From positions 1 to 21,787 of the IMG/VR virus record IMGVR_UViG_3300027806_000175: a stretch of DNA of 21,787 nucleotides, one strand, 5' to 3'. Origin of the DNA: a virus. Under the pieces are notes generated by a model that did not search any database, was not told the origin of the DNA, and was given only the letters and a program-made list of their open reading frames with translations. This document shows, one piece after another, positions 1 to 12,021 of the stretch. How positions within the stretch are numbered: position 1 is the stretch's first letter; each line of letters starts with the position of its first letter. Both the position numbers and the translations under genes were made by a program.

Positions 1-2
1 CC

Positions 3-335
3 ATGAAAAACAACACAGTCACCAAGAATGCAATTCAGCGTGAAAAACAATCCTTTGTGGATTTTTTCAAAGCAATCAAGAAGCAAATCGGAAGCGATAC
101 ACTTGTTGAGACGGGCGACGGTGAAAAGCCCGGCATCGAAGTTACAATCGGATTTCGATACGACAAAGAATCTGACGAGCTGGAATGGAACTACCAGACT
201 GGCGACAATAGTTGCATGGGGGCTGCTTACAGTTTCGCGCACTGGGCAACTACAACCGTCATGAAGCGCTCTAATTGCAACGAGCTTGCTAATGACATTT
301 GCGAGCAGATGGAGAATCTGCCGTGGGAGGAGTGA
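3..335 (+). CDS. Hypothetical protein, 110 aa
   Basis: Unrecognised soluble protein. It starts with a lysine-rich N-terminus, followed by a predicted helix (about residues 12-30), an acidic middle with aromatic residues (WNYQTGD near 63-69) and a C-terminal helix ending in WEE. There is no signal peptide or membrane segment. The window begins two bases before this ATG, so the ribosome-binding site cannot be seen and an upstream start is possible. The stop lies just before the next gene, whose GGGAGGAG Shine-Dalgarno is inside this gene's last codons, so the two are probably translationally coupled. Function unknown. Confidence 0.7.
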   Translation: MKNNTVTKNAIQREKQSFVDFFKAIKKQIGSDTLVETGDGEKPGIEVTIGFRYDKESDELEWNYQTGDNSCMGAAYSFAHWATTTVMKRSNCNELANDICEQMENLPWEE

Positions 336-336
336 G

Positions 337-711
337 ATGACATACGATAGAGCGAAGCATTTGCAAGAATCTCGTAAACGATTCATCGAGGATCTGAGCA
401 ACGCATTGCAAGTTTGCCACGAGAATGATTTTTATCCTGAGGTGTTCAAGCGCTATTACGAGCATCCAGATTACGAGTGGCTAACCACAATGCAAGATGA
501 TCTTGCTGAATTGACGGATAGCCAGCTTGAAGAAATTGCTGATAATTGCGTTGAAAGGCTAGATGAATTTACGATGCGTATGCCAGACGACGATGCCAAA
601 TGGCTTTACAAGAATGGCGGTGGAACAATTTCACCTGCCTCTGTTCTTGATTGGCTAAGGCATACTCAATGCAATTACTACTTCTTCCTCAATCGTCAAA
701 ACAATGACTGA
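337..711 (+). CDS. Hypothetical protein, 124 aa
   Basis: Unrecognised, mostly helical, acidic protein with a run rich in Asp, Glu and Leu (about residues 48-75) and an aromatic C-terminus (NYYFFLNRQ). I chose ATG 337 because GGGAGGAG lies just upstream (326-333). A longer in-frame extension to 286 would overlap the previous gene deeply and lacks a comparable site. The last 8 bases overlap the start of the next gene (ATGACTGA), which is typical of phage operons. Function unknown. Confidence 0.75.
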   Translation: MTYDRAKHLQESRKRFIEDLSNALQVCHENDFYPEVFKRYYEHPDYEWLTTMQDDLAELTDSQLEEIADNCVERLDEFTMRMPDDDAKWLYKNGGGTISPASVLDWLRHTQCNYYFFLNRQNND

Positions 712-964
712 GTATCATCCTCACATTCTTCCCGATGGATGGGAATGGATTGGTGCAATTGCTGCTCCCGATGGTTACAACGGCCTTGCGCATGTTGCAA
801 ACGTTGCGAGATGCACAGAAGGCTTTTTGTGGGAATTTACAAAACCAGGAAGGTATCGCATTCACGAAGATCGTTTCAATCGCAGGAGGATTTCTGATTC
901 AGCCCTGGCCGGAGCGCCGTTTCAATTTCACTCAGTAAATTACAATGACGAAAACGAAGATTGA
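704..964 (+). CDS. Hypothetical protein, 86 aa
   Basis: Small unrecognised protein. Its start overlaps the end of the preceding gene by 8 bases. It has an early PDGWEWIG segment and a basic stretch RFNRRRI (about 57-63), followed by a Phe/His/Asn-rich tail ending in an acidic run. No membrane segment. The next tiny gene starts inside its last codons, so the four genes from 337 to 1486 look like one transcript. Function unknown. Confidence 0.7.
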   Translation: MTEYHPHILPDGWEWIGAIAAPDGYNGLAHVANVARCTEGFLWEFTKPGRYRIHEDRFNRRRISDSALAGAPFQFHSVNYNDENED

Positions 965-1088
965 GCAAGAGTTTGAACGTGAATGCTGGTGGCTTAAGTA
1001 CAAAGGCAGCAGCATTTCATGTAACAGCAGGAAAATGATCCTGCAGGCCAACGATGCAATTCAACAAATCAAGGAGTTTTCACGATGA
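945..1088 (+). CDS. Hypothetical small protein, 47 aa
   Basis: A complete short reading frame beginning MTKTKIEQEFERECWW and ending IQQIKEFSR. It starts at ATG 945 inside the last codons of the upstream gene, preceded by the recurring TTACA motif, and its TGA overlaps the next gene's ATG (ATGA). The tight overlap at both ends and the amphipathic helix-like composition argue that it is real despite its length. No recognisable family. Confidence 0.6.
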   Translation: MTKTKIEQEFERECWWLKYKGSSISCNSRKMILQANDAIQQIKEFSR

Positions 1089-1486
1089 GGATTCGACTAA
1101 AAGATGGTCTGACAATTGAAGAACGTGGCTGGCCTGGACATTTCATTCTTGCCAGAAAATGCTTATTTCATCGCAATACCTTGATAAGGTATAACGATTA
1201 CGCCATTGTTGTTAGCACGGTTGGGCTAATGCAATCGCAAACTATTCCACATGGTTTTGAAGAAATCGGTCACAACCGCTTTTTTGAAACAATGGCATTT
1301 CATGCTGATCAAAACGATACTCGTTACTACGATGCAGACGTCAGTAGGCAGGTTCGATTTGAATCACAATGGCAGATTGCAGAGATGGATGCTGATGACA
1401 AAGCAAATCAAATGCACGATACGGTTGTGAGAGAGATTGCACATAGATTGCGAGCCGGGGAGGATCTCGGCGCATCCGCCGACTGA
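1085..1486 (+). CDS. Hypothetical protein, 133 aa
   Basis: Unrecognised protein. ATG 1085 overlaps the stop of the preceding small gene (ATGA), and an AAGGAG site (1072-1077) supports the start. It begins with a beta-rich basic segment and ends in a helical acidic region (EMDADDKANQMHDTVVREIAHRL). The last dozen codons run into a sharply G+C-richer tract that continues past the stop. The C-terminus may therefore have been altered by recombination. Function unknown. Confidence 0.7.
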   Translation: MRIRLKDGLTIEERGWPGHFILARKCLFHRNTLIRYNDYAIVVSTVGLMQSQTIPHGFEEIGHNRFFETMAFHADQNDTRYYDADVSRQVRFESQWQIAEMDADDKANQMHDTVVREIAHRLRAGEDLGASAD

Positions 1487-1690
1487 TCGCATCCCATCGG
1501 CCTCGGATCGATGTCCAGGCGCCTCGGGAACCACGCTGCGTCCTGCCTGTCGTCACATTGGCGCCGGACGGGTCACAACCGCCTTCCTGGGGCTCCTGTG
1601 GACACCGCCCACCAGAACACATCACGGCAATCTGTAATACATTTTTGCTGTATTGCCTGTAAAGTTCTGCCATGCCTGCTAGAATGCAGG
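1487..1690. other. Non-coding, G+C-rich gap before the first promoter
   Basis: About 200 bases without a convincing gene. From roughly 1451 to 1620 the G+C content is about 65-70% by hand count, against about 43% just upstream. Short open frames on both strands show no recognisable protein and no ribosome-binding site. Near the end are a short inverted repeat (AATACA, loop, TGTATT, about 1636-1654) and a perfect GCCTGC/GCAGGC inverted repeat (1675-1692). The second abuts the -35 box of the next promoter. Confidence 0.5.
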
Positions 1691-1691
1691 C

Positions 1692-1720
1692 TTGACAGCG
1701 CTTATTGCTTCTGGTATAAT
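1692..1720 (+). promoter_or_regulatory. Sigma-70-type promoter P1
   Basis: Perfect consensus: TTGACA at 1692-1697, a 17-base spacer and TATAAT at 1715-1720. GGC immediately precedes the -35 box, as in the other five promoters of this family. It should start transcription near 1727 and drive the four genes from 1773 to 3431. A GCCTGC/GCAGGC inverted repeat directly upstream could be an operator. Confidence 0.9.
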
Positions 1721-1772
1721 GTACTTATCGGATGGGATGGCCTGTCTGATTGTTTCACCACATCACAAAGCC

Positions 1773-2270
1773 ATGCAAATCAATCAATTGGAACTGGAGG
1801 TTGCAACACGCAACCGAGTTAATCAGAAAGCAATCGAATGTCGGATTGCATTGCAAGAAGCACTCAAGCCATTTATTGGCAAGAAGGTAATTAAATACAA
1901 TCCCTACAAGACATGGACGGTTGCCGTCAAGACAAAGCTCAACGAGGTTGAAAAGCAGTTGCGACTTGCTGAAGACAAGTTCCGACTTGTTTATGACATC
2001 AGCCTTTCCCTTGTTTGGATCACGGTTGATTGCACTTATGACGTTCCTGGCAAATGCGGCTGTGAATACGTCAAACGTGACATTGCAATTTGCACCATTG
2101 ATGGTGACATTCTGGTTGACCTGACAGACGACACGATTCAACCCAGGACTGATTACACCGTTGAGGAGGTAATTCACAACATTGAAGAGATGAAAAAATT
2201 GCGTGAGCAGATTAGCAACATTCGTTCCGCAATGGTTGATTTCCGAAACGTTTACGATTTTAACCGCTGA
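1773..2270 (+). CDS. Hypothetical protein, 165 aa
   Basis: First gene behind promoter P1. Two helical, charged segments (about residues 1-70 and 135-155, with coiled-coil-like spacing of Leu/Ile) flank a beta-rich centre with a CGCEY motif. ATG 1773 follows the recurring ATCACAA leader motif. An in-frame ATG at 1737 would lie about 10 bases after the predicted transcription start and is less likely. No recognised family. A soluble accessory phage protein is the most I can say. Confidence 0.75.
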   Translation: MQINQLELEVATRNRVNQKAIECRIALQEALKPFIGKKVIKYNPYKTWTVAVKTKLNEVEKQLRLAEDKFRLVYDISLSLVWITVDCTYDVPGKCGCEYVKRDIAICTIDGDILVDLTDDTIQPRTDYTVEEVIHNIEEMKKLREQISNIRSAMVDFRNVYDFNR

Positions 2271-2292
2271 TTTTGTTTTGCATTCTAGGCAA

Positions 2293-2412
2293 ATGATTGG
2301 ATACACACAAATCACCAAAAAAGAATTTTACGCTCTTGGTGGATTTTCAAATTCTCGCTGCGTTAGGTTACAGCATGGTCGTTGCTGGGCGTACTTCTAC
2401 CGAGTTGACTGA
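2293..2412 (+). CDS. Hypothetical small protein, 39 aa
   Basis: Short frame beginning MIGYTQITKKEFYALGG and ending in an aromatic, Cys-containing segment (GRCWAYFYRVD). It fits between two larger genes of the P1 operon with short gaps. The Shine-Dalgarno is weak, so the call rests on position and protein-like composition. The order (helix, then a short strand-rich tail) is reminiscent of a tiny DNA-binding or inhibitor protein, but that is a guess. Confidence 0.45.
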   Translation: MIGYTQITKKEFYALGGFSNSRCVRLQHGRCWAYFYRVD

Positions 2413-2442
2413 ACTTCACGTCCTGTTGTTGTTTTATTTGCA

Positions 2443-2916
2443 ATGCCAAAACGCAATCCCCGAGTCTTCACGATCAAAGAGATGAATCAACGTCTCAAGG
2501 TCGCTAAAGACTACATCGCAACGAACGATCGCGTTCGGTTGATCCATAGCAATGATTGCATTGCATTGGATTACGACTCAGAAAGCATCGACGCTTTCCT
2601 TACAAAAGAAAGACTCGATCATTCGCTTTTGCAAGACGCTGTATTTGGCGTGATTGTTGACTACGTGTTTGCTTCTGACATTCCGAATTACAAGTTTGCT
2701 ACTGATCCATTCACGTTCTGTCGTGCTAAGGATCAATCACGTGATGTTGGCCTTGTTGTTCCAATGGTATTCCACAGGCCGAACAGCGATCTCATCACAA
2801 AACATGCTGCATGTTGGCTCGGTACGTGGCATCACGCTCCAGTGATTGCATGGAACAATCGCAAAGAAGCGGAAATCAAAGTTGAGAAGCTTCCTTTTTA
2901 TTCTGATCTGCTGTGA
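2443..2916 (+). CDS. Hypothetical protein, 157 aa
   Basis: Unrecognised soluble protein. It has a basic N-terminus (MPKRNPR), a helix near residues 12-25 and a long mixed alpha/beta body with WLGTWHH near residue 126. ATG 2443 is preceded by TTTGCA, a form of the region's recurring motif, and not by a strong Shine-Dalgarno. Its TGA overlaps the GTG of the next gene, so the two are probably coupled. Function unknown. Confidence 0.75.
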   Translation: MPKRNPRVFTIKEMNQRLKVAKDYIATNDRVRLIHSNDCIALDYDSESIDAFLTKERLDHSLLQDAVFGVIVDYVFASDIPNYKFATDPFTFCRAKDQSRDVGLVVPMVFHRPNSDLITKHAACWLGTWHHAPVIAWNNRKEAEIKVEKLPFYSDLL

Positions 2917-3431
2917 AAAACTTTATCCTGGAGGTTAAAAACATCAAGCCGTGCCCTGGTGGTCACAGTTGCAGCCTGACCGCAAACGGCAAGAAAGTTG
3001 CCTACGTTGCTCCTGATGACATCTTTGAATGGACTAATCACAATGCAATGGTTGATGTTCTTGAGTTTTATGGCGCTTCACTCGGACTGGACAATACGGG
3101 ACCGGTTGAGCTTGAAGACGGATGGATGGAAAAGAATGCACCCAGCAGAAAGAAACTGGAAATGCAATCACACGCCCAGGACAAGCTTTCAGCGTGGGTG
3201 CGTAGTTACGTTGCAAGGCATCTAAAAGCAAAGCAGGTGCTGGATCTTTGCAAGCAAACTGTTTTGATTGGAATGCCGATGGGGAGGGGTTCAATGCAGG
3301 TGGTTGACTTTTGTCAATCCCCTTCAACGTTAAAGAATCCACTCAGACGAAAGTTCATAGAAGATGTCCTTGTTGCAGGACAGATCATTCTTAATGACAT
3401 GACACTGGATCAGCTAATTACAATCCTCTGA
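2913..3431 (+). CDS. Hypothetical protein, 172 aa
   Basis: Last gene of the P1 operon. It starts at GTG 2913, overlapping the previous stop (GTGA). The N-terminal 60 residues look beta-rich with CPGGHSC near 14-20. The C-terminal half is helical with several Cys and Met residues. A GTG start with overlap usually means low, coupled expression. No recognised family or membrane segment. Confidence 0.7.
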   Translation: MKNFILEVKNIKPCPGGHSCSLTANGKKVAYVAPDDIFEWTNHNAMVDVLEFYGASLGLDNTGPVELEDGWMEKNAPSRKKLEMQSHAQDKLSAWVRSYVARHLKAKQVLDLCKQTVLIGMPMGRGSMQVVDFCQSPSTLKNPLRRKFIEDVLVAGQIILNDMTLDQLITIL

Positions 3432-3458
3432 TCTGCGGCTGAATTACGGCAGATTTGC

Positions 3459-3521
3459 GTGTTAAACTTTGCTAACACTGCTAGTTTGCGGCTTGACGTA
3501 CTAGAAAGTATCTAGTATAAT
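3459..3521 (+). promoter_or_regulatory. Promoter P2 with upstream repeat and spacer dyad
   Basis: TTGACG (3493-3498), a 17-base spacer, then TATAAT (3516-3521), with GGC before the -35 box. The spacer is occupied by a perfect 7-bp inverted repeat, TACTAGA/TCTAGTA (3499-3505 and 3511-3517), which overlaps the -10 box and would suit a repressor. Upstream, TGTTA at 3460 and TGCTA at 3470 lie exactly 10 bases apart. They sit within a second inverted repeat, GTGTTA/TAACAC (3459-3478). Confidence 0.88.
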
Positions 3522-3529
3522 GAGCTTAA

Positions 3530-3556
3530 GTCGGGGGAGGAGCTTCCTCAATCGAC
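3530..3556 (+). promoter_or_regulatory. 5' leader hairpin of the P2 transcript
   Basis: About 9 bases after the -10 box lies a G-rich hairpin. GTCG (3530) pairs with CGAC (3553), and GAGGA pairs with TTCCTC inside it. It occupies the same place as the G-rich leader hairpins behind P3, P4 and P5. Probable roles are mRNA 5' protection or control of early elongation (inference). Confidence 0.55.
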
Positions 3557-3586
3557 ACTCCACATTACGTTGCAACGGAGAACACA

Positions 3587-3856
3587 ATGCAAACCGGTCC
3601 TGTCATCAAGACGACTTACAGCGGCCCAACTAACATTCGTGACGCCATCATTATTGCATCGCATCGGCGTGACAGTGAAACGCTGTGGCGTGCAATTCAC
3701 GTGTACGATCACAATCTCAGCCAGGACGAGAATCATCGCGCTGCGGCCGAGAACTTGATTCAGCGCTGGCCGCTGAATGCAAAGGGTTCGGTCGGTGCAT
3801 GTGGTTACGATCACAAGCATCATTACTTTGTGTTTGCGTTGGATGCTTACAACTAG
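3587..3856 (+). CDS. Hypothetical protein, 89 aa
   Basis: First gene behind P2. It has a clear start: GGAG at 3577-3580 and the stereotyped leader ending ACACAATG. The protein is alpha/beta, His- and Asn-rich, with a DYNLSQDE-like acidic loop and a C-terminal HHYFVFALDAYN strand. No recognised family. A position immediately after a strong promoter and good ribosome-binding site suggests high early expression. Confidence 0.75.
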   Translation: MQTGPVIKTTYSGPTNIRDAIIIASHRRDSETLWRAIHVYDHNLSQDENHRAAAENLIQRWPLNAKGSVGACGYDHKHHYFVFALDAYN

Positions 3857-3898
3857 CAATCCAGTTCATTTCTTTTCCCCTCACCCCACAAAACAATC

Positions 3899-4024
3899 AT
3901 GCCTAAGCTTTATTCCGCTGCCTGGGTTCTTTTGATTGCGGCGCTTTTTGCTGCGTCTGCATCAACGCTTACAATCAGTTTCATGCGGGATCTTCAATAC
4001 AACGGTCCTGCATGCGTTGATTGA
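3899..4024 (+). CDS. Small single-pass membrane protein, 41 aa
   Basis: A 41-residue frame: a short basic start (MPKLYS), a hydrophobic alanine/leucine helix of about 20 residues (positions 8-28), then a short polar tail with one Cys (NGPACVD). This is the layout of a small inner-membrane protein, or of a signal peptide with little beyond it. The gene lies in the P2 operon between two well-supported genes. Small phage membrane proteins in early regions often modify the host envelope or block superinfection; nothing here proves that. Confidence 0.6.
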   Translation: MPKLYSAAWVLLIAALFAASASTLTISFMRDLQYNGPACVD

Positions 4025-4058
4025 TTGCTGCTAGTCCAAATTACAACAGAGAACTCAC

Positions 4059-4463
4059 ATGACCTGGACTGTTTCACATCTCAAGGATCGTCTTGGTATT
4101 TCAGACGAGGAAGCCGCAGATGTCATTGCGATTGTTCGGGGTAACATTGACCCGCTGAATGACGATCGGTTCCCTAAGACGCAACAGTGGGTGCAACAGT
4201 GTTACAGATGCCACCGACCACATACTGTTGAACTCAAGATGGAGGCGTTGAATGAGTTGTTGTGTGGCTGTGGTGTAGAAGCCGTTGAGCATGAAGACAT
4301 TTGGGTAGACCGTTATCACGGTAACATCGTTGGCACTTATGTCAACTTTGGTGATACTTACATTCCAACCGTGATTTACGATACACGTCGCGGCGTGTTT
4401 ACAATCAACTCCTGGGGTGATTTTTACGAAGCCCTGAAGCCAGATTCTGACGAGGAGGAGTGA
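4059..4463 (+). CDS. Hypothetical protein with possible zinc site, 134 aa
   Basis: The N-terminal 30 residues look like a small helical domain (HLKDRLGISDEEAADVI). They are followed by CYRCHRPH (Cys48, Cys51, His52, His55) and CGC (Cys69, Cys71). These residues could bind a metal as a zinc ribbon or knuckle. The C-terminal half is beta-rich and ends in an acidic tail (DSDEEE). The start follows GAGAACTCACATG, a variant of the shared leader. The next gene starts inside its stop (TGATG). Zinc binding is inferred from residue spacing only. Confidence 0.75.
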   Translation: MTWTVSHLKDRLGISDEEAADVIAIVRGNIDPLNDDRFPKTQQWVQQCYRCHRPHTVELKMEALNELLCGCGVEAVEHEDIWVDRYHGNIVGTYVNFGDTYIPTVIYDTRRGVFTINSWGDFYEALKPDSDEEE

Positions 4464-4654
4464 TGCACGACATCAGCGAAATGACAATCGTTAAGGGCGA
4501 GGTTGCAATGTCTCGCCGGCTGAAAGAATTGGGTTGGGCGAACACAGAACAATTCGCCAATCGAACTGTTTACAAGAATAGAAGGGGAGAAGTCATCGGC
4601 ATTACTTTATTTTGGCATCAGGGCGGAACAGATCACACTCACTTCGTCAAATAA
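4463..4654 (+). CDS. Hypothetical protein, 63 aa
   Basis: Starts at ATG 4463, overlapping the previous stop, with a strong GAGGAGGAG site at 4451-4459. A GTG three bases earlier is possible but weaker. It is a small alpha/beta protein with RRLKELGWANTEQF (helix) and a beta-hairpin-like C-terminus (YKNRRGEVIGITLFWH). It is the last gene before a strong terminator. Function unknown. Confidence 0.75.
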   Translation: MHDISEMTIVKGEVAMSRRLKELGWANTEQFANRTVYKNRRGEVIGITLFWHQGGTDHTHFVK

Positions 4655-4667
4655 TACATTTCATTTC

Positions 4668-4699
4668 GGGGTTGATTGCATTGCAGTCAGCCCCTTTTT
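4668..4699 (+). terminator. Factor-independent terminator of the P2 operon
   Basis: A long, nearly perfect hairpin: the arm starting GGGGTTGATTGCA (4668) pairs with the arm ending GTCAGCCCC (4694), with a few G-T pairs. TTTTT follows directly at 4695. It stands 14 bases after the stop codon and upstream of promoter P3, so it insulates the two units. Confidence 0.9.
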
Positions 4700-4741
4700 G
4701 CCATGTATAAAAAACACTAATGGAAGTCCTTTAATTCAGGC

Positions 4742-4770
4742 CTACCATGTAGACTCCAGCATGGTATAAT
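4742..4770 (+). promoter_or_regulatory. Promoter P3 with spacer dyad
   Basis: TATAAT at 4765-4770. The hexamer 17 bases upstream is CTACCA (4742-4747), a poor -35 match but again preceded by GGC. A perfect 7-bp inverted repeat, TACCATG (4743-4749) and CATGGTA (4760-4766), spans the -35/-10 interval. This suggests operator control, as at P2 but with different sequence. The 10-base TGTTA repeat seen at P4-P6 is only vaguely present. Confidence 0.75.
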
Positions 4771-4777
4771 AGGTATA

Positions 4778-4797
4778 AGCCGGGGGAGAGCCCGGCT
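4778..4797 (+). promoter_or_regulatory. 5' leader hairpin of the P3 transcript
   Basis: Perfect 7-bp stem AGCCGGG/CCCGGCT with the loop GGAGAG, starting 7 bases after the -10 box. The transcript would therefore begin at or next to the stem. The stem bases differ from those behind P4 and P5 while pairing is kept, which suggests selection on RNA structure. Confidence 0.7.
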
Positions 4798-4831
4798 AGT
4801 TACAAGTTCTACATCACAACGGAGAATCACA

Positions 4832-5227
4832 ATGCAAACCACGTTTGCTTCGCTATCAGAACTCAAGGAACAGGAGCCGGCGATTTACAAGCTGATCTCC
4901 AGGCTGGGTCACAATTCGTGGTATCGCTGCGATGAAATGACGTGGCGGTTCAGGATTCAAGACGACTTCAATCCGTATTGCGTTGCGGCGAACCCGGATT
5001 ACATGACAGACGCCCAGTTTAAGTTCCTGGCAACTGAGGCGTTGTATCGGGAGGGCGCCATGGACATTCCGTTCCGTCGATACATCGAAGACATGAAGTA
5101 CAACACAACCATGATCTTCGTGAATGATGGCGACATGCTGATGACATTCGAGGTTCCCACTTACATCAGTGGGTGGCTCAATGGCATTTACATCGGCGTT
5201 GATGCCGATGGTCGTTCCAACTCCTGA
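4832..5227 (+). CDS. Hypothetical protein, 131 aa
   Basis: First gene behind P3. Its start is decided by the stereotyped leader ACAACGGAGAATCACAATG, with GGAG at 4821-4824. The protein begins with a helical segment (SELKEQEPAIYKLISRLG), followed by an aromatic, mixed alpha/beta body. No membrane helix is evident; the GWLNGIYIGV stretch near the end is too short. Unrecognised. Confidence 0.78.
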   Translation: MQTTFASLSELKEQEPAIYKLISRLGHNSWYRCDEMTWRFRIQDDFNPYCVAANPDYMTDAQFKFLATEALYREGAMDIPFRRYIEDMKYNTTMIFVNDGDMLMTFEVPTYISGWLNGIYIGVDADGRSNS

Positions 5228-5240
5228 TTACAACACGGCC

Positions 5241-5450
5241 ATGAATCAATTTACATTGCCAACGGGTCGCATTGTCGAGAAGGATGCAACCCACTGCGTC
5301 GCAGTTCAATCACGCGGTCGCTGGAGCCACAAGTTTTTCAAAAGTTACAAGGGGGCGATGAATGAAATTAAGTCACTTCGCGCTATGAGTGATGATACGA
5401 AGGCTTATTACGACGTTACAAGCTTCAGGTTGATTAAACCCAATTCTTAA
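5241..5450 (+). CDS. Hypothetical protein, 69 aa
   Basis: ATG 5241 was chosen because it follows the previous stop and the recurring GATTACAACAC spacer. The longer frame from 5169 would overlap the previous gene. Predicted shape is two or three beta strands, a helix (SYKGAMNEIKSLRAMS), then a strand. The neighbours at 5456 and 6618 have the same apparent beta-beta-alpha-beta layout without obvious sequence identity. Function unknown. Confidence 0.72.
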   Translation: MNQFTLPTGRIVEKDATHCVAVQSRGRWSHKFFKSYKGAMNEIKSLRAMSDDTKAYYDVTSFRLIKPNS

Positions 5451-5455
5451 ATACA

Positions 5456-5668
5456 ATGCAGTACCAATTTCGCAACAATCCTTCAACCGGACGACGTTAC
5501 AGCATTTGGGTTGAACGCTTCATTACGGACATCGGAACTCGTCCAGTCCTGGAATGGTTCGATACGATGGAGGATGCAATTCAAGCAGCCGAAGAAATGA
5601 AACAAGACGGCAGGTTCTTTGGAATCTGCAGTTACGTTAGATCACAGCAGGTTGCCGACTGCTCTTGA
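5456..5668 (+). CDS. Hypothetical protein, 70 aa
   Basis: Starts 6 bases after the previous stop at AATACAATG, with no clear Shine-Dalgarno, so it probably depends on coupling. The N-terminus is beta-rich (FRNNPSTGRRYSIWVERF), followed by a helix (TMEDAIQAAEEMKQ) and a short C-terminal strand. This resembles the layout of the gene at 5241. No recognised family. Confidence 0.72.
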   Translation: MQYQFRNNPSTGRRYSIWVERFITDIGTRPVLEWFDTMEDAIQAAEEMKQDGRFFGICSYVRSQQVADCS

Positions 5669-5682
5669 TAATACATCGCATT

Positions 5683-5708
5683 GGATGGGCCATTCCACTG
5701 GCTCATCC
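5683..5708 (+). terminator. Hairpin after the P3 operon (possible terminator without U-tract)
   Basis: A 9-bp stem, GGATGGGCC (5683-5691) with GGCTCATCC (5700-5708), one G-T pair and an 8-base loop. It sits 14 bases after the last stop of the operon and before promoter P4. No T-run follows, so it may be a weak terminator, a 3'-end stabiliser or a factor-dependent site. Confidence 0.5.
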
Positions 5709-5718
5709 CATAAAACAG

Positions 5719-5770
5719 TGTTAATGACTGTTAATTCGGGCTCGCGGTTCTATAAAGCATCTGCTATAAT
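5719..5770 (+). promoter_or_regulatory. Promoter P4 with 10-bp direct repeat
   Basis: TATAAT at 5765-5770. Seventeen bases upstream is TCGCGG (5742-5747), not a normal -35 box, preceded by GGC as in the whole set. Upstream, TGTTA at 5719 and TGTTAAT at 5729 are spaced exactly one helical turn apart. A perfect -10 with no normal -35 but a conserved upstream repeat suggests an activator-dependent promoter. Confidence 0.78.
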
Positions 5771-5778
5771 GTAGAAGT

Positions 5779-5794
5779 GCGGGGGAGGCCCTGC
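5779..5794 (+). promoter_or_regulatory. 5' leader hairpin of the P4 transcript
   Basis: Six-bp stem GCGGGG/CCCTGC (one G-T pair) closed by the loop GAGG, starting 8 bases after the -10 box. The loop and position match the P5 hairpin exactly, while one stem pair differs (G-T here, A-T there). Confidence 0.65.
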
Positions 5795-5828
5795 GCTGAT
5801 TCCAACCCCACATTACAAGGAGAATTAC

Positions 5829-6083
5829 ATGGCAACCGAGCTTTCCATCACGATCCGCAACGCAGGTGAGATTGCAGGGTTCCTGGTTGACATTCTCGGT
5901 GACGACACCGATGAACAGCTCAATACGATTCTTGAGCAGTTGTTTCATTACGAAAGTTGGTCAGAAGATGAAGATAATGCGCCACGCTTTCCGGTGGTTC
6001 TTGGTTACGTCAAGTCGGCGTTATTTCATGCGTTGCACGAGCGGGAGATTAAACGTTGGTCACAAGCTGGCTTGAATGGATGA
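5829..6083 (+). CDS. Hypothetical acidic protein, 84 aa
   Basis: First gene behind P4, with a strong AAGGAG site (5817-5822) six bases before ATG 5829. The protein is strongly acidic and helical (VDILGDDTDEQLNTILEQLFHYESWSEDED), with a C-terminal helix rich in His and Arg. Acidic composition of this kind is common in phage DNA-mimic or inhibitor proteins, but no specific family is recognised. Confidence 0.75.
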   Translation: MATELSITIRNAGEIAGFLVDILGDDTDEQLNTILEQLFHYESWSEDEDNAPRFPVVLGYVKSALFHALHEREIKRWSQAGLNG

Positions 6084-6120
6084 CACTGGCAACCTGAACA
6101 CATCACAACCGAGAGCCACA

Positions 6121-6612
6121 ATGGAACCCAATCACTTTGAGTTCGCGGTCACTCGTCACATTGACTGGCGAGATCGTGAAACGATTTACGTCAAGGCGCT
6201 TACATCGCATGAGGCGATTGACTACATGCGATCCATCACCGACGATGAAGACGACAATAAAGAGTTTGCGGATTTCATTTACAGGTGCTACGTTCCAGAG
6301 TCCGCCCTGCTCAATGGAGTTTCGGTTTACAACGCAATGCAGAAGCCATTGCCGGTTGTGGAGTTCTCGCAAGAAAACAATCCAGGGATTCCGTTCATGG
6401 ATTGGTGGGTTGCACGTTGCGATGGCCAGCTGATTGCAACGATCGGTCGTAATCACAACTGCGAGTCACATTACAGCATGACTGCGTATTCGATGTTTGG
6501 TGCCCCTTGGTGTCGCACTGTCATTGATTACAATTTCACTGGCGGTGGAATGACATTGGAGGAAGCGAAAGACAAAGCATACGAGTTCGCCCGTCATCTC
6601 AACGGAGTTTGA
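6121..6612 (+). CDS. Hypothetical protein, 163 aa
   Basis: ATG 6121 was preferred to the upstream in-frame ATG at 6076, because 6076 lies inside the previous gene and 6121 follows the GAGAGCCACAATG leader. The N-terminal half is beta-rich with an acidic helix (SITDDEDDNKEFADFIYRCY). The C-terminal half contains WWVARCDGQLIATIGRNHNC and a Gly-rich turn before a final helix (TLEEAKDKAYEFARHL). Several Cys and His residues are present but form no clear metal motif. Unrecognised. Confidence 0.75.
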   Translation: MEPNHFEFAVTRHIDWRDRETIYVKALTSHEAIDYMRSITDDEDDNKEFADFIYRCYVPESALLNGVSVYNAMQKPLPVVEFSQENNPGIPFMDWWVARCDGQLIATIGRNHNCESHYSMTAYSMFGAPWCRTVIDYNFTGGGMTLEEAKDKAYEFARHLNGV

Positions 6613-6617
6613 TCACA

Positions 6618-6803
6618 ATGCACGACACTGACATTCAACAGCAGGAGCCGGTTGGTTACAAGCTGGCTTGGATGGATGACACTGGTAACTGGAGGACATT
6701 ACAAGAGTTCTCCAGTTATTCGGAAGCTGATTTAGCTTTCGATGAATACGACGAGTCCGGCGAGTATGACAATACGATGATGGACATCATTCCAATGTAT
6801 TGA
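6618..6803 (+). CDS. Hypothetical acidic protein, 61 aa
   Basis: ATG 6618 follows the previous stop in TGATCACAATG. A TTG three codons earlier overlaps that stop and is less likely. It is a very acidic small protein: strands (GYKLAWMDDTGNWRTLQEF), a helix (SYSEADLAFDEYDES), then a hydrophobic end (MMDIIPMY). Its layout resembles that of the proteins at 5241 and 5456. Last gene of the P4 operon. Function unknown. Confidence 0.7.
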   Translation: MHDTDIQQQEPVGYKLAWMDDTGNWRTLQEFSSYSEADLAFDEYDESGEYDNTMMDIIPMY

Positions 6804-6840
6804 ACGTGGTGGAAACCGCCGTGGTGCCGGGCTAATTACG

Positions 6841-6891
6841 TGTTAGCGTTTGTTAATCCGGCCCACGGTGCAGAATCCTACACGCTATAAT
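6841..6891 (+). promoter_or_regulatory. Promoter P5 with 10-bp direct repeat
   Basis: TATAAT at 6886-6891. The hexamer 17 bases upstream is CCACGG (6863-6868), again preceded by GGC. TGTTA at 6841 and TGTTAAT at 6851 form the same one-turn direct repeat as at P4 and P6. From TTACG (6836) to TTAAT (6857) the sequence is identical to that at P6. Confidence 0.8.
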
Positions 6892-6899
6892 AGGTGTAA

Positions 6900-6915
6900 G
6901 CAGGGGAGGCCCTGC
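6900..6915 (+). promoter_or_regulatory. 5' leader hairpin of the P5 transcript
   Basis: Perfect 6-bp stem GCAGGG/CCCTGC with the loop GAGG, beginning 9 bases after the -10 box. This is the clearest example of the leader hairpin that follows the promoters of this family. Confidence 0.7.
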
Positions 6916-6955
6916 CAGGTTACAAGCTCCAGATCACAACACAACGGAGAATCGC

Positions 6956-7258
6956 ATGACAAGCGACCTCACACAATTCGCGATGCACTTCTGCCAGATC
7001 ATCTCAGTGGAAGATGGCAGTAAGTACATCATCTATGGGTGCGAAGACGAGATTCAAGACTTCGTGGAAGGCATCACGAAGCGTCGCCCCGGTCAATACA
7101 TCTGTGGTGAATCGTTCATCGCAAAGGCCAAGTGGATTACAAACCCCAAGAAGTTTGCCAAGAAGTTTGGTGACAATACAGGTCTCTGGGATCTGTACGG
7201 CGAGCAGATCGTTCACATCGTCAACGGTAAGTGGAAGGTCGTTGCCGAGATGAGCTGA
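6956..7258 (+). CDS. Hypothetical protein, 100 aa
   Basis: First gene behind P5. Its start is set by ACAACGGAGAATCGCATG (GGAG at 6946). The protein is alpha/beta: strands (FCQIISVEDGSKYIIYGC), a helix (EDEIQDFVEGI), a basic stretch (KAKWITNPKKFAKKFGDN) and a C-terminal hairpin (QIVHIVNGKWKVVAEM). The basic middle could contact nucleic acid, but no family is recognised. Confidence 0.77.
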   Translation: MTSDLTQFAMHFCQIISVEDGSKYIIYGCEDEIQDFVEGITKRRPGQYICGESFIAKAKWITNPKKFAKKFGDNTGLWDLYGEQIVHIVNGKWKVVAEMS

Positions 7259-7283
7259 TTACATTCCAACGAATCAAATCACA

Positions 7284-7511
7284 ATGACGAAAACCGCTTT
7301 TCTTCAAGCCTACCGGTCAGAGCTTGAAGTTCGTTACGATTGGGCTGGTGATAACACGAAGCTCGATCGGTTCATGTCGAGTGTCGAGACAACGATTACT
7401 ACAACGACATCGACTTGGAATTACGATGGCGATGCAGTTACGTCTGCCTGGCGCAAGATTGGTTGCAAGGGCAAGCCTACATTGAAGGCATTGCGTGCAT
7501 TGCCGAACTGA
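7284..7511 (+). CDS. Hypothetical protein, 75 aa
   Basis: Starts at AATCACAATG after a 25-base gap, with no strong Shine-Dalgarno. It has helices at both ends (FLQAYRSELEVRYDWAGD; TLKALRALPN) and a Thr-rich centre of consecutive threonines (about residues 37-43). Small and polar, with no membrane segment. Second gene of the P5 operon. Function unknown. Confidence 0.7.
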   Translation: MTKTAFLQAYRSELEVRYDWAGDNTKLDRFMSSVETTITTTTSTWNYDGDAVTSAWRKIGCKGKPTLKALRALPN

Positions 7512-7537
7512 TTACAACACAACCACGGAGAATCACA

Positions 7538-7729
7538 ATGTCAGCAACCTACTTCACGAACTACACCGTTCGTTTCGATGGCGGTCCCGAGATTGTTGTT
7601 ACAGAAGTCGATAACAGCGAGTCGCTTGCCATTGAGCAAGCACAACGCATCATGCGCCGCAGCGGTCGCATTCTGAACCCGGATGTTCTCAATACAGCGC
7701 GAGTGGTTTACGAGGAGTCGGCTGATTGA
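7538..7729 (+). CDS. Hypothetical protein, 63 aa
   Basis: ATG 7538 has the full stereotyped leader (GGAG at 7527, then AATCACAATG). The longer frame from 7415 overlaps the previous gene and is rejected. The fold looks like strands, a helix (ESLAIEQAQRIMRRSGR), then a strand, with an acidic C-terminus. Unrecognised. Confidence 0.75.
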   Translation: MSATYFTNYTVRFDGGPEIVVTEVDNSESLAIEQAQRIMRRSGRILNPDVLNTARVVYEESAD

Positions 7730-7734
7730 TCGCA

Positions 7735-7905
7735 ATGGCGCAAAACAAGGATCCGCACGCCAAATCACAAGACATTTGGCTGTTATTGAATCAGGTCGAA
7801 CAACTTATGATGAACGATCCTGATTACATTGATGCCATTGCTCTCATTGGAGTGGCAATGCACATTACAGAGGAGGTGCAAGAAAGACTTGAGTCTGGCT
7901 GCTAG
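7735..7905 (+). CDS. Hypothetical small helical protein, 56 aa
   Basis: Short frame starting MAQNKDPHAKSQDIWLLL and ending EEVQERLESGC, almost entirely helical. It begins 6 bases after the previous stop at ATCGCAATG and probably uses the GAGGAG site at 7718-7723. It is the last gene of the P5 operon. The next 76 bases hold promoter P6 and no terminator that I can see. Function unknown. Confidence 0.65.
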   Translation: MAQNKDPHAKSQDIWLLLNQVEQLMMNDPDYIDAIALIGVAMHITEEVQERLESGC

Positions 7906-7934
7906 AAAACGGCGGCGAGTCGGCGTTAGTTACG

Positions 7935-7986
7935 TGTTAGCGTTTGTTAATTCCGGCTCGCGGTCTTAATTGCAGCGTGGTATAAT
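7935..7986 (+). promoter_or_regulatory. Promoter P6 with 10-bp direct repeat
   Basis: TATAAT at 7981-7986. TCGCGG 17 bases upstream (7958-7963) is identical to the hexamer at P4 and is preceded by GGC. TGTTA at 7935 and TGTTAAT at 7945 repeat the P5 upstream sequence. Downstream the leader carries GGGGAGG at 7998-8004 and the palindrome GGCCATGGCC (8003-8012). ACCG and CGGT flank it and could close a looser hairpin. Confidence 0.78.
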
Positions 7987-8053
7987 TGGTATGTACCGGG
8001 GAGGCCATGGCCTTAATCACGGTGCAAGTCACATCACAACCACGGAGAACACA

Positions 8054-8329
8054 ATGTACTGGCTTCTTTCCGGTTGGACGCTTTACGTTTCGTCCTCGAA
8101 GAAGAAACTGCGCAAGTTCGCCAAGTCACTTCACCACGGCTCAGGACACAAGCAGTCCTTTGGGTACATGCACCTCAATAAAATTGAGGATGCATTTAAT
8201 TTTATCGAGCAGTTCGGCTCGGCCACGAGGCTTCAATACATCACAGTTCCCGACATGACGCTTGAGCCAGAACTTGGCCGCAAGTTTCAGCCAACCGGCA
8301 AGTGGATTCTTTCCGCCTGCTCCAGGTGA
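8054..8329 (+). CDS. Hypothetical basic protein, 91 aa
   Basis: Only gene behind P6, with GGAG at 8044-8047 and the ACACAATG leader. The start is hydrophobic (MYWLLSGWTLYVSS) but is followed at once by a basic run (SKKKLRKFAKSLHHGSGHK), so it is more likely an RNA- or DNA-binding protein than a membrane one. The C-terminal half is alpha/beta. The longer frame from 7970 begins upstream of the predicted transcription start. Unrecognised. Confidence 0.75.
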   Translation: MYWLLSGWTLYVSSSKKKLRKFAKSLHHGSGHKQSFGYMHLNKIEDAFNFIEQFGSATRLQYITVPDMTLEPELGRKFQPTGKWILSACSR

Positions 8330-8336
8330 TTGCAAC

Positions 8337-8403
8337 GTCGAGAGTGCGTGAATACAATACCTTCGGGGAATAAACGCACACTACATGAATGACACCTCTC
8401 GAC
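8337..8403 (+). ncRNA. Structured RNA element or terminator-like fold
   Basis: A perfect 8-bp outer stem, GTCGAGAG (8337-8344) with CTCTCGAC (8396-8403), encloses a second stem GTGCGT/ACGCAC (8344-8349 and 8374-8379). The inner loop contains CCTTCGGG, a C(UUCG)G tetraloop. The element starts 8 bases after the stop of the P6 gene and has no T-run. It could be a small RNA, a processing or stability element, or a DNA site for packaging. It is not a tRNA: no anticodon arm, T-loop or CCA. Confidence 0.5.
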
Positions 8404-8495
8404 ACAATCCATTGTTCTTTGTTAATGGTTTATGAAGCATCACAAGCGTTACAAAGCAACGCCGTGTGGGATTATTTAGTGTTGAATGGCTTGTG

Positions 8496-8523
8496 ATCGA
8501 ATGTAGCGCCAAATACATTCGAT
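8496..8523. repeat. Perfect 10-bp inverted repeat upstream of the terminase-small-like gene
   Basis: ATCGAATGTA (8496-8505), the 8-base spacer GCGCCAAA, then TACATTCGAT (8514-8523). It lies 34 bases before the start of the small-terminase-like gene. It could be an operator for that gene or part of a packaging recognition site. Confidence 0.6.
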
Positions 8524-8557
8524 TGGCTTTGAACATGGTTACTACTGGAATAAGTCA

Positions 8558-9394
8558 ATGGGGTGTGGCAATGTCACATCCCATTTTTTGTGTCAACTCA
8601 CATTACGTTACAGGAATGGAAACGTTACAACCAGTCCCCAGCACAAACATCCCACCCGTGGTAGAATTACAACCACCCGCCCCCAATCACAAGTGCCCAA
8701 CCAATCTGATTACAACGAAGACACGAATGAAGATACAACACAGTATGACTTTGAATACAATGACGCTGAAGATGAATCACAAGATGATGCTACTGTTGAT
8801 GTCAATCCTTTTGGTTTTGATAGTGATGACAATACCCAAGAAGAAGTTATTCTCGCGCCCACTAACTCCTCCCCCACAACCAAAACACATTCCTGGCTAT
8901 ACAGGTCACAGTACGCCCCTCTTGAATCTGAACGAGAATTTCAATTCCTACAATCCTTCCTAGAACTGGGAGGGGGTCGATCAATACAATATATCTCGCA
9001 GATACTCAATATACAAGAATCAACCATCTACAAGATTTATTGCAAGAACAATTGGAAGCTACGTGCTGCTGATTACGACAGGTACATGCTATCCCAGAAG
9101 ATCAAGCTGTCCCAGGATGCAAGACAACAGGAACACTTAATGCAACTGGAGAGGTATCGCCAGGAACAAGAAGCAATTGGTCGGCAGCTAAGTATGAATG
9201 CAGCAAAGATTGCACAACTTGCCAATGCCACCTTGAATACAATGCTGGACAATGCAGAAAACATTACAGTACGGGACATGCCATCAATGTTAAACGCTGC
9301 TGCCAAGTTAGCTGACATCGGGAAGCAATTACAATCTACCGCACTTGGTGTCGATCAACTGTTAGTTGCATTGGAGGAGTCCGAGGTTGAATAG
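8558..9394 (+). CDS. terS: Terminase small subunit-like protein, 278 aa
   Basis: Proposed DNA-recognition subunit of the packaging motor. Residues 1-110 are disordered: a Thr/Gln-rich start and then a highly acidic linker. From about residue 116 (PLESEREFQFLQSFLELGGGRS) comes a helix-turn-helix-like domain (IQYISQILNIQESTIYKIYCKNNWKLRAADYDRYML). A long helical region follows (QQEHLMQLERYRQEQ), and then a region I recall from terminase-small-like proteins of cyanobacterial phages and prophages (ATLNTMLDNAENI, MPSMLNAAAKLADIG). ATG 8558 is the only ATG ahead of the domain and has no clear Shine-Dalgarno, so the exact start is uncertain. Unusually, the large subunit lies 3.1 kb downstream. Confidence 0.6.
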   Translation: MGCGNVTSHFLCQLTLRYRNGNVTTSPQHKHPTRGRITTTRPQSQVPNQSDYNEDTNEDTTQYDFEYNDAEDESQDDATVDVNPFGFDSDDNTQEEVILAPTNSSPTTKTHSWLYRSQYAPLESEREFQFLQSFLELGGGRSIQYISQILNIQESTIYKIYCKNNWKLRAADYDRYMLSQKIKLSQDARQQEHLMQLERYRQEQEAIGRQLSMNAAKIAQLANATLNTMLDNAENITVRDMPSMLNAAAKLADIGKQLQSTALGVDQLLVALEESEVE

Positions 9395-9559
9395 CAACGA
9401 GTATTGCATTACATTGCAACGGCTGTCAAGTTGCATTACAACGTTGTGCGTGGTCGCATTGCAACCATAGGGATTGCCGTACAGGCCATAAATAATAATA
9501 AGCAACTCCCGAGATCGACTGCGCCGCAATGGATCTCAAACCGGGAATTTGACAATCCC

Positions 9560-10042
9560 ATGGCGAGAACCCCAGTCCACGACAGGGTTTTACAAAACTC
9601 GTTTACAATTCGGGGCCGCCCGGAACCCATCCCAAATTTCTACAAAATGCAACTAACTACAAGCCTTGGTACGTTACCTCCATGGAGTGCAAGACTGCTT
9701 AAAATACTTCGCAACAGGGGTGATCTCAATCTTTCGATGACATCATTTGCAATACTTGCCACGCTTATTGACGTTTCTTATTGCAAGATGTTGATACATT
9801 ACAATCTGGTGGAATTCGCAGAAGAAACCATCATTCATGAAAGAACAATGCGGCGAGCAATACAAGACCTGCGTGAACTTGATCTCATTCGCATGGTAGA
9901 TTACAAAGAGAAAAAATACATTATTGTCGATCCCTTGCTTGCAAACCCTGGCACCAAGCAACAGAGAACCCACAAGATACAAGTTTGGAATAACGCCATT
10001 CAATACAAGCGCATTCGCAACACTGATCTGGGCCATTCATGA
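9560..10042 (+). CDS. Winged-helix DNA-binding protein, RepL-like, 160 aa
   Basis: The C-terminal half reads as a winged helix. Helices run through the LSMTSFAILATLIDVSYC region, then comes the recognition helix (HERTMRRAIQDLRELDLIRMV), a wing (DYKEKKYIIVDP), and LLANPGTKQQRTHKIQVWN. The last pattern, an NP near a Gly and then an Arg and a Trp, recalls plasmid/phage replication proteins of the RepL type. I prefer ATG 9560. The frame stays open upstream to a TTG at 9404, but that extension looks like translated motif repeats. The gene's last codons overlap the first unit of a repeat array, as when a replication initiator lies beside its iterons. A transcription regulator is the main alternative. 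Confidence 0.5.
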   Translation: MARTPVHDRVLQNSFTIRGRPEPIPNFYKMQLTTSLGTLPPWSARLLKILRNRGDLNLSMTSFAILATLIDVSYCKMLIHYNLVEFAEETIIHERTMRRAIQDLRELDLIRMVDYKEKKYIIVDPLLANPGTKQQRTHKIQVWNNAIQYKRIRNTDLGHS

Positions 10043-10210
10043 CAAGCCCCAGGCCCATTCATAACAAGCCATTCACGCATTCATTACATTACAACGCCAT
10101 TCACATTACATCGCAACGCCATTCATTACAGGCGATTGCGCCATTCATTACATCGCAACGCCATTCATAATACATTACAACGCCATTCATTACATTACGC
10201 CATTTACCTT
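10031..10210. repeat. Iteron-like array, block 1 (20-22 bp units)
   Basis: About nine degenerate copies of a unit close to GCCATTCATTACATCGCAAC. They begin near 10032, 10053, 10068, 10096, 10118, 10140, 10160, 10182 and 10199. Most spacings are 20-22 bases, about two helical turns, with one of 28. The first copy overlaps the stop of the RepL-like gene. Open frames across it are only translated repeats. A candidate initiator-binding array. Confidence 0.8.
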
Positions 10211-10254
10211 ATTGCATTACGCTTGCGCCACGTTACGTTACGCCCGTTCCGTGC

Positions 10255-10330
10255 TACAATACAACAAGTACGCCTTACAATACAACGAATGCACGTTACA
10301 ATACAACGCCCCGGTGCATTACAATACAGC
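10255..10330. repeat. Iteron-like array, block 2 (TACAATACA units)
   Basis: Four copies of TACAATACA(A/G)C at 10255, 10276, 10297 and 10320, so spaced 21, 21 and 23 bases. The phasing matches block 1 with a different core. This points to one protein or filament contacting the same face of the helix across both blocks. Confidence 0.75.
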
Positions 10331-10704
10331 TGCAGTTACATTACAATGCACAGCCTTCTACATTACATTACGATCGAATTACAATACATTGCAATCGCTG
10401 TTTGTTACATAGCAATTGCTGATAGATAACAATACATAGCAGATGCTAAACACAATGATACATTGCAATCGCTAAATACAACAAACCCAACCGATGCAAG
10501 ATAGGGTGCCGGCGCTGATGCAAACCGCGCCAGGTGTTAGTTACATCGACCTGCCGGTTCCCCACAATTCCCGCGTTTTTATCTGTATGGCACGGCTGCT
10601 AGCACGTTCCCGCAACGGCTAAAAACGAATGTTTTTTGCGGTTCACCGTCCTACAACGTGGCGAGACTGTTACGGTTTGCAAACCGGTTTAGCCTGTAGG
10701 TTGC
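10331..10704. other. Non-coding region between repeat arrays and alanine-rich gene
   Basis: No credible gene. From 10331 to 10480 the DNA is A+T-rich and carries further repeats. ATACATTGCAATCGCT occurs exactly twice (10384 and 10458), and ACATAGCA...TGCT occurs twice, once as the palindrome AGCAATTGCT. From 10480 to 10704 the composition becomes more G+C-rich and holds overlapping palindromes at 10673-10690. I see no confident sigma-70 promoter. Together with the two arrays this would suit a replication origin with an unwinding region. Confidence 0.5.
10673..10690. promoter_or_regulatory. Overlapping palindromes, candidate operator
   Basis: CGGTTTGCAAACCG (10673-10686) is a perfect 14-bp palindrome, and AAACCGGTTT (10681-10690) is a second one overlapping it. 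They lie 15 bases before the likely GTG start of the alanine-rich gene. A dimeric regulator could bind there and block expression. Confidence 0.5.
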
Positions 10705-11619
10705 GTGGCAGGCAGGGGGTTGTATGATTCCTGCAACGGGACAAACCTCTACCAGTCCCGCCTACCGGAAAAAACCGTGCCCAACAATCGCAAGAACAAC
10801 GGCCGCTCCTTCAACTACGTCAAGGATGCCGCTGCTGCTGCTGATCGGATCGCCGCTGCTGCTGCTGCTGTGGCCGCTGATCCTGACGCTGCTACCGCTG
10901 TGGCCGCTGCTGCTGACGCCGCCGCTGCTGCTGCTGTGGCCGTGGCTGACGCTATGGCGACCGGCGACCTTACTGCTGCTGCTGCTGCTGCTGCTGACGC
11001 CGTGGCCGCTGCTGATTCTGCTGAGAGGATCGCCGCAAGTGTGGCCGCTGCTGACGCGGCAGAGGACGCCGCTGTGGCAGAGGACGCCGCTGTGGCAGAG
11101 GATGCCGACGATCCGGTAATGCTGGAGCTTGATACGCTCCTAGCGTCAATGGCGGCCCCCCTGCCCCCCCTGCCGACCGTTGAGAAGGGTTCACGTACCG
11201 TCAAGCCCGGACAGCCTGTCTGGGAGCCTGATGCGATCACGCGCGCCGCAATGGAGCGCGCTGGCTGGGGAATCAGTGAGAAGATCAATACTGGTTACAG
11301 TCCGCGTGACATTGATGCTCTGACGCGTCCAATCATCACATCGATCAGTGCCAATGAAAAGCGCGGTAAATTGCAGAAACATGCCCTGCTTAATTGGGTT
11401 ACAGCTCAAACGAACTTGACCAGTAAGGGTGGCAGTGCCAGGGTTGTATCACTGGCAGCATATATGATCCAACACAAAGATACGTTTAAGGGCGTGGCAC
11501 GGTTTAATACGTTGGAGGGCACTCTTAATGCTCTCGCAGATTACTGCGGCAGGGTAGTCCTTCGCCGTGGCGATGTTATCACATTTTCCAACAAGCAGGA
11601 GGAGAATCGCAAGCGCTGA
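10705..11619 (+). CDS. Alanine-repeat protein with unknown C-terminal domain, 304 aa
   Basis: Residues 41-135 are almost entirely Ala with spaced Asp, Val and Thr, encoded by runs of GCTGCTGCT and GCCGCT. They probably form one long helix or a flexible rod. After a Pro-rich hinge (PLPPLP), the last 130 residues look like a normal folded domain (VWEPDAITRAAMERAGWGISEKIN; then a helical end with FNTLEGTLNALADYCGR) that I do not recognise. The start is uncertain. GTG 10705 is the first possible codon after an in-frame stop and has a poor ribosome-binding site. Such proteins can be DNA-binding (histone-like) or structural. The triplet runs should vary in length between relatives. Confidence 0.65.
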   Translation: MAGRGLYDSCNGTNLYQSRLPEKTVPNNRKNNGRSFNYVKDAAAAADRIAAAAAAVAADPDAATAVAAAADAAAAAAVAVADAMATGDLTAAAAAAADAVAAADSAERIAASVAAADAAEDAAVAEDAAVAEDADDPVMLELDTLLASMAAPLPPLPTVEKGSRTVKPGQPVWEPDAITRAAMERAGWGISEKINTGYSPRDIDALTRPIITSISANEKRGKLQKHALLNWVTAQTNLTSKGGSARVVSLAAYMIQHKDTFKGVARFNTLEGTLNALADYCGRVVLRRGDVITFSNKQEENRKR

Positions 11620-11661: not shown

Positions 11662-11760
11662 TACATTGCAATACATCGAAGCAGAGGTTACGATGCAATA
11701 AGGAATGGGTTACAATTTAGCCGGGGTGGGTTACATTTTGCGCGGAACGGCGGCGACCAC

Positions 11761-11995
11761 CCACTCCCAAATTTTTTTCCCGTTTTCAACGGGCCCACCA
11801 CCAAATTTTTTTTCCATTTTCACCAAACCCACCCCTAGATTTTTTTTCCAATTTCACCAAGCCCACCACCAAATTTTTTTCCCAATTTCAACGACCACAA
11901 TTTTTTTCCCATTTTCAACAAATCCTTCCCAACCACAATATATTTTCACCACACCATATAACAACAAGTCCTTGCCACCAAATTTTTTTCCAAAA
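11761..11995. repeat. 33-34 bp T-tract repeat array
   Basis: About seven degenerate copies of a unit that begins CCCACCACCAAA, continues with a run of 7-8 T, and ends CCAATTTCACCAA. They start near 11761, 11794, 11828, 11862, 11895 and 11928, with a final copy near 11968. The spacing is about 33-34 bases. Because the period is not a multiple of three, the frame that stays open across it (11705-12046) is not a repeat protein. Phased A/T-tracts like these bend DNA. The array fills the gap between the + strand alanine-rich gene and the minus-strand cassette. Confidence 0.8.
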
Positions 11996-12021
11996 AAATC
12001 CCCCGGATCTCACCCCGAGGG
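11992..12021 (-). terminator. Minus-strand factor-independent terminator
   Basis: Read on the minus strand: CCCTCGG, an 8-base loop, CCGGGGG (7-bp stem, one T-G pair), then A and a run of seven T. On the + strand the stem is 12000-12021 and the A-run 11992-11998. It ends the minus-strand pair of genes 22 bases after the second stop codon. Confidence 0.8.

Follow-up and report, generated by a model that had tools for sequence, protein, structure and literature searches.

Extended −10 promoters of the sigma-70 type carry TGn-TATAAT in a 17-nucleotide (nt) frame, and in them the −10 and −35 boxes compensate for each other, the −35 being weak or missing. In T4 middle promoters, a MotA box is found 12 ± 1 bp from the −10, and about half of these promoters have TGn (PMC2988021). 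Other phages encode a sigma factor of their own (phiEco32 gp36, 7-11 gp47) while their early genes use host sigma-70 (PMC8948821), and the cyanosiphovirus P-SS2 has a group-2-like sigma factor (PMC2784084). At the level of the transcript, a 5′ hairpin impedes 5′-end conversion by RppH and can stabilize mRNA (PMC3997798). Here we describe a family of six promoters, P1 to P6, in positions 1 to 21,787 of the IMG/VR virus record IMGVR_UViG_3300027806_000175 (this whole 21,787-nt stretch is the window, or G000). Each copy joins a fixed promoter frame to a hairpin directly after the predicted transcript start. The reading that we favor, at a probability of about 0.55, is that they form a six-copy early promoter and leader cassette read by host SigA, in which an extended −10 compensates for loss of the −35 and the 5′ hairpin protects the mRNA.

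Promoter frame and 5′ hairpin in the window

GGC followed by a hexamer, exactly 17 nt, and TATAAT occurs at six sites in the window, all on the + strand, and these include six of its eight TATAAT. In shuffled window sequence, 0.06 GGC-N6-N17-TATAAT sites are expected and 0/100 shuffles reach six, so the six-member family proposed in an initial annotation, with its fixed spacing, GGC prefix, and TATAAT, is borne out. By pattern match, the cores are P1 (1689..1720, −35 hexamer TTGACA), P2 (3490..3521, TTGACG, with an orthologous site in relatives), P3 (4739..4770, CTACCA), P4 (5739..5770, TCGCGG), P5 (6860..6891, CCACGG), and P6 (7955..7986, TCGCGG). These hexamers, including the one common to P4 and P6, are as first reported, and the gradation described for them holds in broad terms, with 0, 1, 3, 4, 6, and 4 mismatches to TTGACA from P1 to P6. 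An extended −10 (TGn directly 5′ of TATAAT) is present in P1, P3, and P6 (TGG) and in P4 (TGC) but not in P2 (TAG) or P5 (CGC), and sequence conservation among the six copies runs well past the −35 and −10 boxes. A matrix built from the six window sites was used to scan G001, a near-identical genome of 71,317 nt in which a 33-nt overlap of window sequence between the two ends suggests a circular molecule. The scan returned the same six sites and none else above shuffles, as expected of a closed family, and the sites precede small early genes only and no structural gene. A generic promoter scan (10 found vs 9.8 expected) was of no use here except for P1 and P2.

The initial annotation overlooked the extended −10, the 5′ hairpin right after the predicted start, and an upstream element. 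The −10 was fixed beforehand, and folding began 6 nt after each TATAAT. All six + strand leaders form a hairpin: P1 at 1727..1750 (10 bp, −11.6 kcal/mol), P2 at 3530..3556 (−13.8 kcal/mol), P3 at 4778..4797 (−15.1 kcal/mol), P4 at 5776..5797 (−16.3 kcal/mol), P5 at 6900..6915 (−11.8 kcal/mol), and P6 at 7992..8026 (−16.5 kcal/mol). The first pair lies 0–3 nt from the predicted start in 6/6 copies. Since 6.5% of positions in the region fold as well as these (−11.6 to −16.5 kcal/mol), the chance of all six is ~7e-8. The stem sequences vary among copies while pairing is retained, and hairpins of different copies have only G-runs and a purine-rich loop in common; after the hairpin comes an unfolded leader that includes the ribosome-site region. 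The predicted starts fall at about 1727, 3528, 4777, 5777, 6898, and 7993. The hairpin register thus places the transcript start, itself predicted, where the boxes predict it, and in this indirect way meets one part of the refutation test set in the initial annotation. Together with homologous cassettes in 10 other genomes, this register strongly supports a functional promoter family.

A stable stem no more than about 4 nt from the 5′ end is the mark of 5′-terminal stabilizers, and relative to the predicted start it is found here; an Rfam search gave no match. During infection by P-SSP7, host RNase E rises and a protective antisense RNA covers the phage transcripts (PMC9692554). Given the protection that 5′ hairpins can afford and this rise of RNase E in cyanophage infection, protection of early mRNA would be the likeliest role of the hairpin.

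A GYTARY (CTAAC-type) element lies upstream of the −35; counted from the −10, it begins at −45 in most relatives and at −43/−44 in P2, P4, P5, and P6. On the + strand it is GTGTTAAACTTTGCTAACAC in P2 (3459..3478), an inverted repeat GTGTTA-N8-TAACAC with GCTAAC at the clade position, and sequence comparison places it at 5718..5735 in P4 (GTGTTAATGACTGTTAAT), 6840..6857 in P5, and 7934..7951 in P6 (both GTGTTAGCGTTTGTTAAT). Upstream, P5 and P6 are identical at 23/25 positions with one gap, and P4 and P6 are alike at 16/24; P1 lacks the element, and in P3 it is not clear-cut. The element may act as an activator site or as an UP element.

The cassette across the clade

The virus record has no close isolate relatives, and searches of isolate phages gave no DNA match for the region and nothing meaningful for the cassette. 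Its terminase is 35–40% identical to those of Synechococcus and Prochlorococcus siphoviruses, e.g., S-H1 and KBS-S-2A, and the phage is probably an uncultured relative of cyanobacterial siphoviruses. Near-identical contigs exist, and further uncultured relatives were fetched with the terminase, the sigma factor, one early protein, and the small terminase. A terminase-based search of bacterial genomes for prophages or hosts found none, and the host is therefore inferred from the nearest isolate phages only.

By profile search, 11 genomes hold a total of ~34 distinct homologous cassettes, with the clade consensus TTACAGnnnGCTAACTTTACAGG-N6-GGC-TTGnnn-N14-TGG-TATWAT-N7-9-hairpin, the hairpin carrying GGGGA(A/G). 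Within the −35 segment, GGCTTG is conserved and the last three bases are free, and over the clade the hexamer runs from TTGACA, by way of TTGCTA and TTGCAT, into non-TTG sequences, these classes mixing within single genomes. The site orthologous to P2 reads GGGC-TTGCTA-17-TATAAT in relatives, or has TTGCAT or TTGACG. That many copies retain TTGACA or TTGACG fits the earlier remark that P1 and P2 look host-recognized.

TGn is present in 25/34 cassettes, and after two of the 34 had been re-registered by hand, a perfect TATAAT was counted in 8/8 non-TTG members (four in the window; elsewhere TACTTT twice, TACCTT, and TGGCTT) vs 7/26 TTG members (Fisher P 3.5e-4, kinship ignored). The −10 thus compensates for the −35 across cassettes, and the −35 itself may be dispensable. 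The 5′ arms fit their own 3′ arms better than permuted partners (0/20,000 permutations). A hairpin in 34/34 is not an independent test because the hairpin is itself part of the profile and the −10 register was set partly with the aid of folding. The clean hairpin test consists of the six window copies and 16 cassettes of the more distant G010, G013, and G015, which cannot be aligned with the others. There, near-consensus TTGACA copies whose −10 registers were chosen without folding have a 5′ hairpin in 14/16. A literature search on repeated phage promoters and stoperators found nothing.

Candidate factors reading the promoters

Most likely, the host sigma-70-type (SigA) polymerase would read all six promoters at the start of infection. 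The cassette would run from the upstream element through the GGC-prefixed −35 segment and 17 nt to a perfect, often extended −10, with initiation predicted ~7 nt past the −10, followed by the 5′-terminal hairpin, the unstructured leader, and the ribosome site. In P3–P6, where the canonical −35 is largely lost, initiation would depend on TATAAT and TGn together with the upstream element. The result would be a strength series, a suggestion of the initial annotation that is plausible inasmuch as one and the same genome can hold better and poorer −35 boxes and the −10 is perfect in all members without TTG. At the extreme 5′ end, the hairpin would shield the mRNA from 5′-end-dependent decay. Cyanobacterial −35 boxes are usually weak, a piece of general background of which we found no statement in PMC6091082.

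Several observations weigh against SigA acting through a compensated −10. P5 has no TGn, the hairpins of the 34-cassette set were partly favored by how that set was found, and a phage sigma factor with an altered region 4.2 is present. In addition, P4–P6 share a conserved non-canonical −35 segment, GGC-YCRCGGT, while their spacers have diverged: P4 and P6 are identical at 10/10 bases over GGC, the −35, and one further base, and their spacers at 2/13. The segment has thus been maintained rather than merely decayed, or else homogenized by recombination, since spacer similarity is mosaic (P2–P4 10/13, P3–P5 9/13). Something would then still read the P4/P6 segment, as a merely dispensable −35 should drift.

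The sigma-70-family gene lies at G001:31365-32234 (= L062:11365-12234). Its Pfam matches are to region 2 at 2e-20 and to region 4 at 1e-4, the latter below its cut-off. Region 2 is as in SigA with the −10-reading residues kept, and the region 4.2 helix reads LSPQAIRDRI in the phage vs VTRERIRQIE in the host, which changes the positions equivalent to E. coli R584, E585, and Q589. The factor belongs to a clade of uncultured phages and has at least 576 relatives in IMG/VR, with variable −35-reading helices, the same helix also varying among relatives in this clade; among cyanosiphoviruses, S-CBS1 and S-CBS3 have a sigma 38–39% identical to it, and KBS-S-2A also carries one.

Ranked second to host SigA, and improbable, is that the phage sigma reads P3–P6, its region 2 opening TATAAT and its rewritten region 4.2 recognizing GGC-YCRCGGT, while P1 and P2 serve as immediate-early promoters of the host sigma. 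The altered helix and the P4–P6 segment kept despite diverged spacers give some ground for the phage-modified polymerase suggested in the initial annotation, and among contigs with cassettes, the longer ones that were examined (G001, G004, G024, G026, G029, and G030, the last with two such genes) encode a same-clade sigma. But these genomes mostly carry TTGACA, TTGCTA, or TTGCAT cassettes, no P3–P6-like site precedes a structural gene, CTACCA of P3 is unlike P4–P6, and we found no rule connecting the sigma helix to the −35 sequence across genomes. The 43.6-kb G033 has the cassette and no sigma was seen in it, although this contig may be a fragment. In the activator reading, ranked third and less probable again, a phage or host activator (or repressor) would bind GYTARY or TTA-N8-TAA just 5′ of the −35 and control P2 and P4–P6, so that a poor −35 suffices, a principle also seen in T4 middle promoters. 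The nearly constant position of the element, the P2 inverted repeat, and the P5/P6 identity favor it, but P1 is without the element and P3 is ambiguous, the activator itself is hypothetical, and MotA and AsiA gave no match in five genomes in a search without a positive control. These readings partly overlap with one another and with that of host SigA. A T7-type RNA polymerase had no match, likewise in a search without a positive control.

We consider it unlikely, just behind the activator, that in the course of its evolution the cassette passed, along the map, from being read by the host (P1, P2) to being read by the phage sigma (P3–P6), which would recognize GGC-YCRCGGT-17-TATAAT, the transcripts being marked by the 5′ hairpin and by sense-strand UUACA words. 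The same words along the early transcripts, a hairpin opening each unit, and a terminator 5′ of P3 would also suit a hairpin that acts not as a 5′-end protector but as a put- or nut-like antitermination element in the RNA, letting early transcription pass inter-unit terminators. We doubt this most, as HK022 put RNA is sequence-constrained and the stems here differ among copies.

Transcription units, repeated words, and described systems

The six promoters head six units of ~18 small + strand genes with no assigned function (1773..8329, gene calls). The units start 46–62 nt after the predicted transcript start, with a GGAG Shine-Dalgarno sequence at 5/6 first genes. A terminator search found an intrinsic terminator just 5′ of P3 (4668..4699, +, 12-bp stem, TTTTT) and a terminator-like stem after the last unit (8557..8589, +). 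A terminator between every unit was rejected, as the U-run is present only before P3 and other inter-unit hairpins lack it. A tRNA search found none.

Strand-polar words were taken from the + strand of window 1-11600. Within window 1-10500, TTACA occurs 73 times vs 4 for its complement and TACAA 69 vs 1; TCACA occurs 42 vs 4 in the early region, and the structural half is near zero. Coding TTACA plus TCACA number 56 vs 28.4 ± 3.6 in synonymous shuffles. TTACA is among the most polar early words in G024, G026, G029, and G004, and not in the outgroups G010, G013, and G015. A dense degenerate CATTCA/ATTACA/ACGCCATT array lies at window 10020-10480, between the small-terminase region and the large terminase; near their own terminase genes, relatives carry arrays built from different units, e.g., at L065:7900-8270, L088:690-1095, and L090:14744-15200. 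Window 10780-11130 encodes an Ala-rich low-complexity N-terminus (GCT/GCC runs) of the open reading frame 10705-11619, and C- and T-rich CCCA..AAATTTTTTTTCC repeats lie before the large terminase at window 11760-12000.

The cassettes make up a naturally occurring set of homologous promoters whose −35 varies while the frame, −10, and leader stay constant, with a sigma of matching ancestry alongside. Throughout this phage clade, promoter and 5′ mRNA hairpin evolve together as a single unit, and since relatives keep the layout while the −35 drifts, the polymerase factor that reads the cassette becomes a testable question. With synthetic templates, −35 evolution and mRNA protection under RNase E in cyanophage infection are both open to direct testing.

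P-SS2 and S-CBS1/S-CBS3, which are phages of a related type, resemble this one in having a group-2-like sigma, and in the literature passages searched (PMC2784084) they have no cassette family or 5′ hairpin. Like phiEco32 and 7-11, the phage encodes a sigma, but in those two the promoters of the phage sigma are built from elements of their own and drive middle and late genes, whereas the window promoters have a host-type −10, and non-host-type promoters before middle or late genes were not found. The likeness to T4 middle promoters drawn in the initial annotation proved weak: an excellent −10, frequent TGn, and a non-canonical −35 region are common to both (PMC2988021), but the conserved segment here lies 17 nt from the −10, its consensus is GGC-TTGnnn or GGC-YCRCGG, and relatives use TTGACA at homologous cassettes, so membership among T4 middle promoters is not supported. 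Extended −10 sigma-70 promoters have in common with this family the 17-nt frame, the compensation between −10 and −35 and, for four of the six copies, TGn, but a conserved GGC before the −35, a fixed upstream element, a 5′ hairpin in each copy, and six copies per genome set this family apart from them. Finally, as in 5′-terminal stabilizers of the ompA/papA type, a stable stem lies a few nt from the 5′ end and the ribosome site is free (PMC3997798), but here the hairpin, with its putative stabilizing role, is part of a repeated phage promoter cassette.

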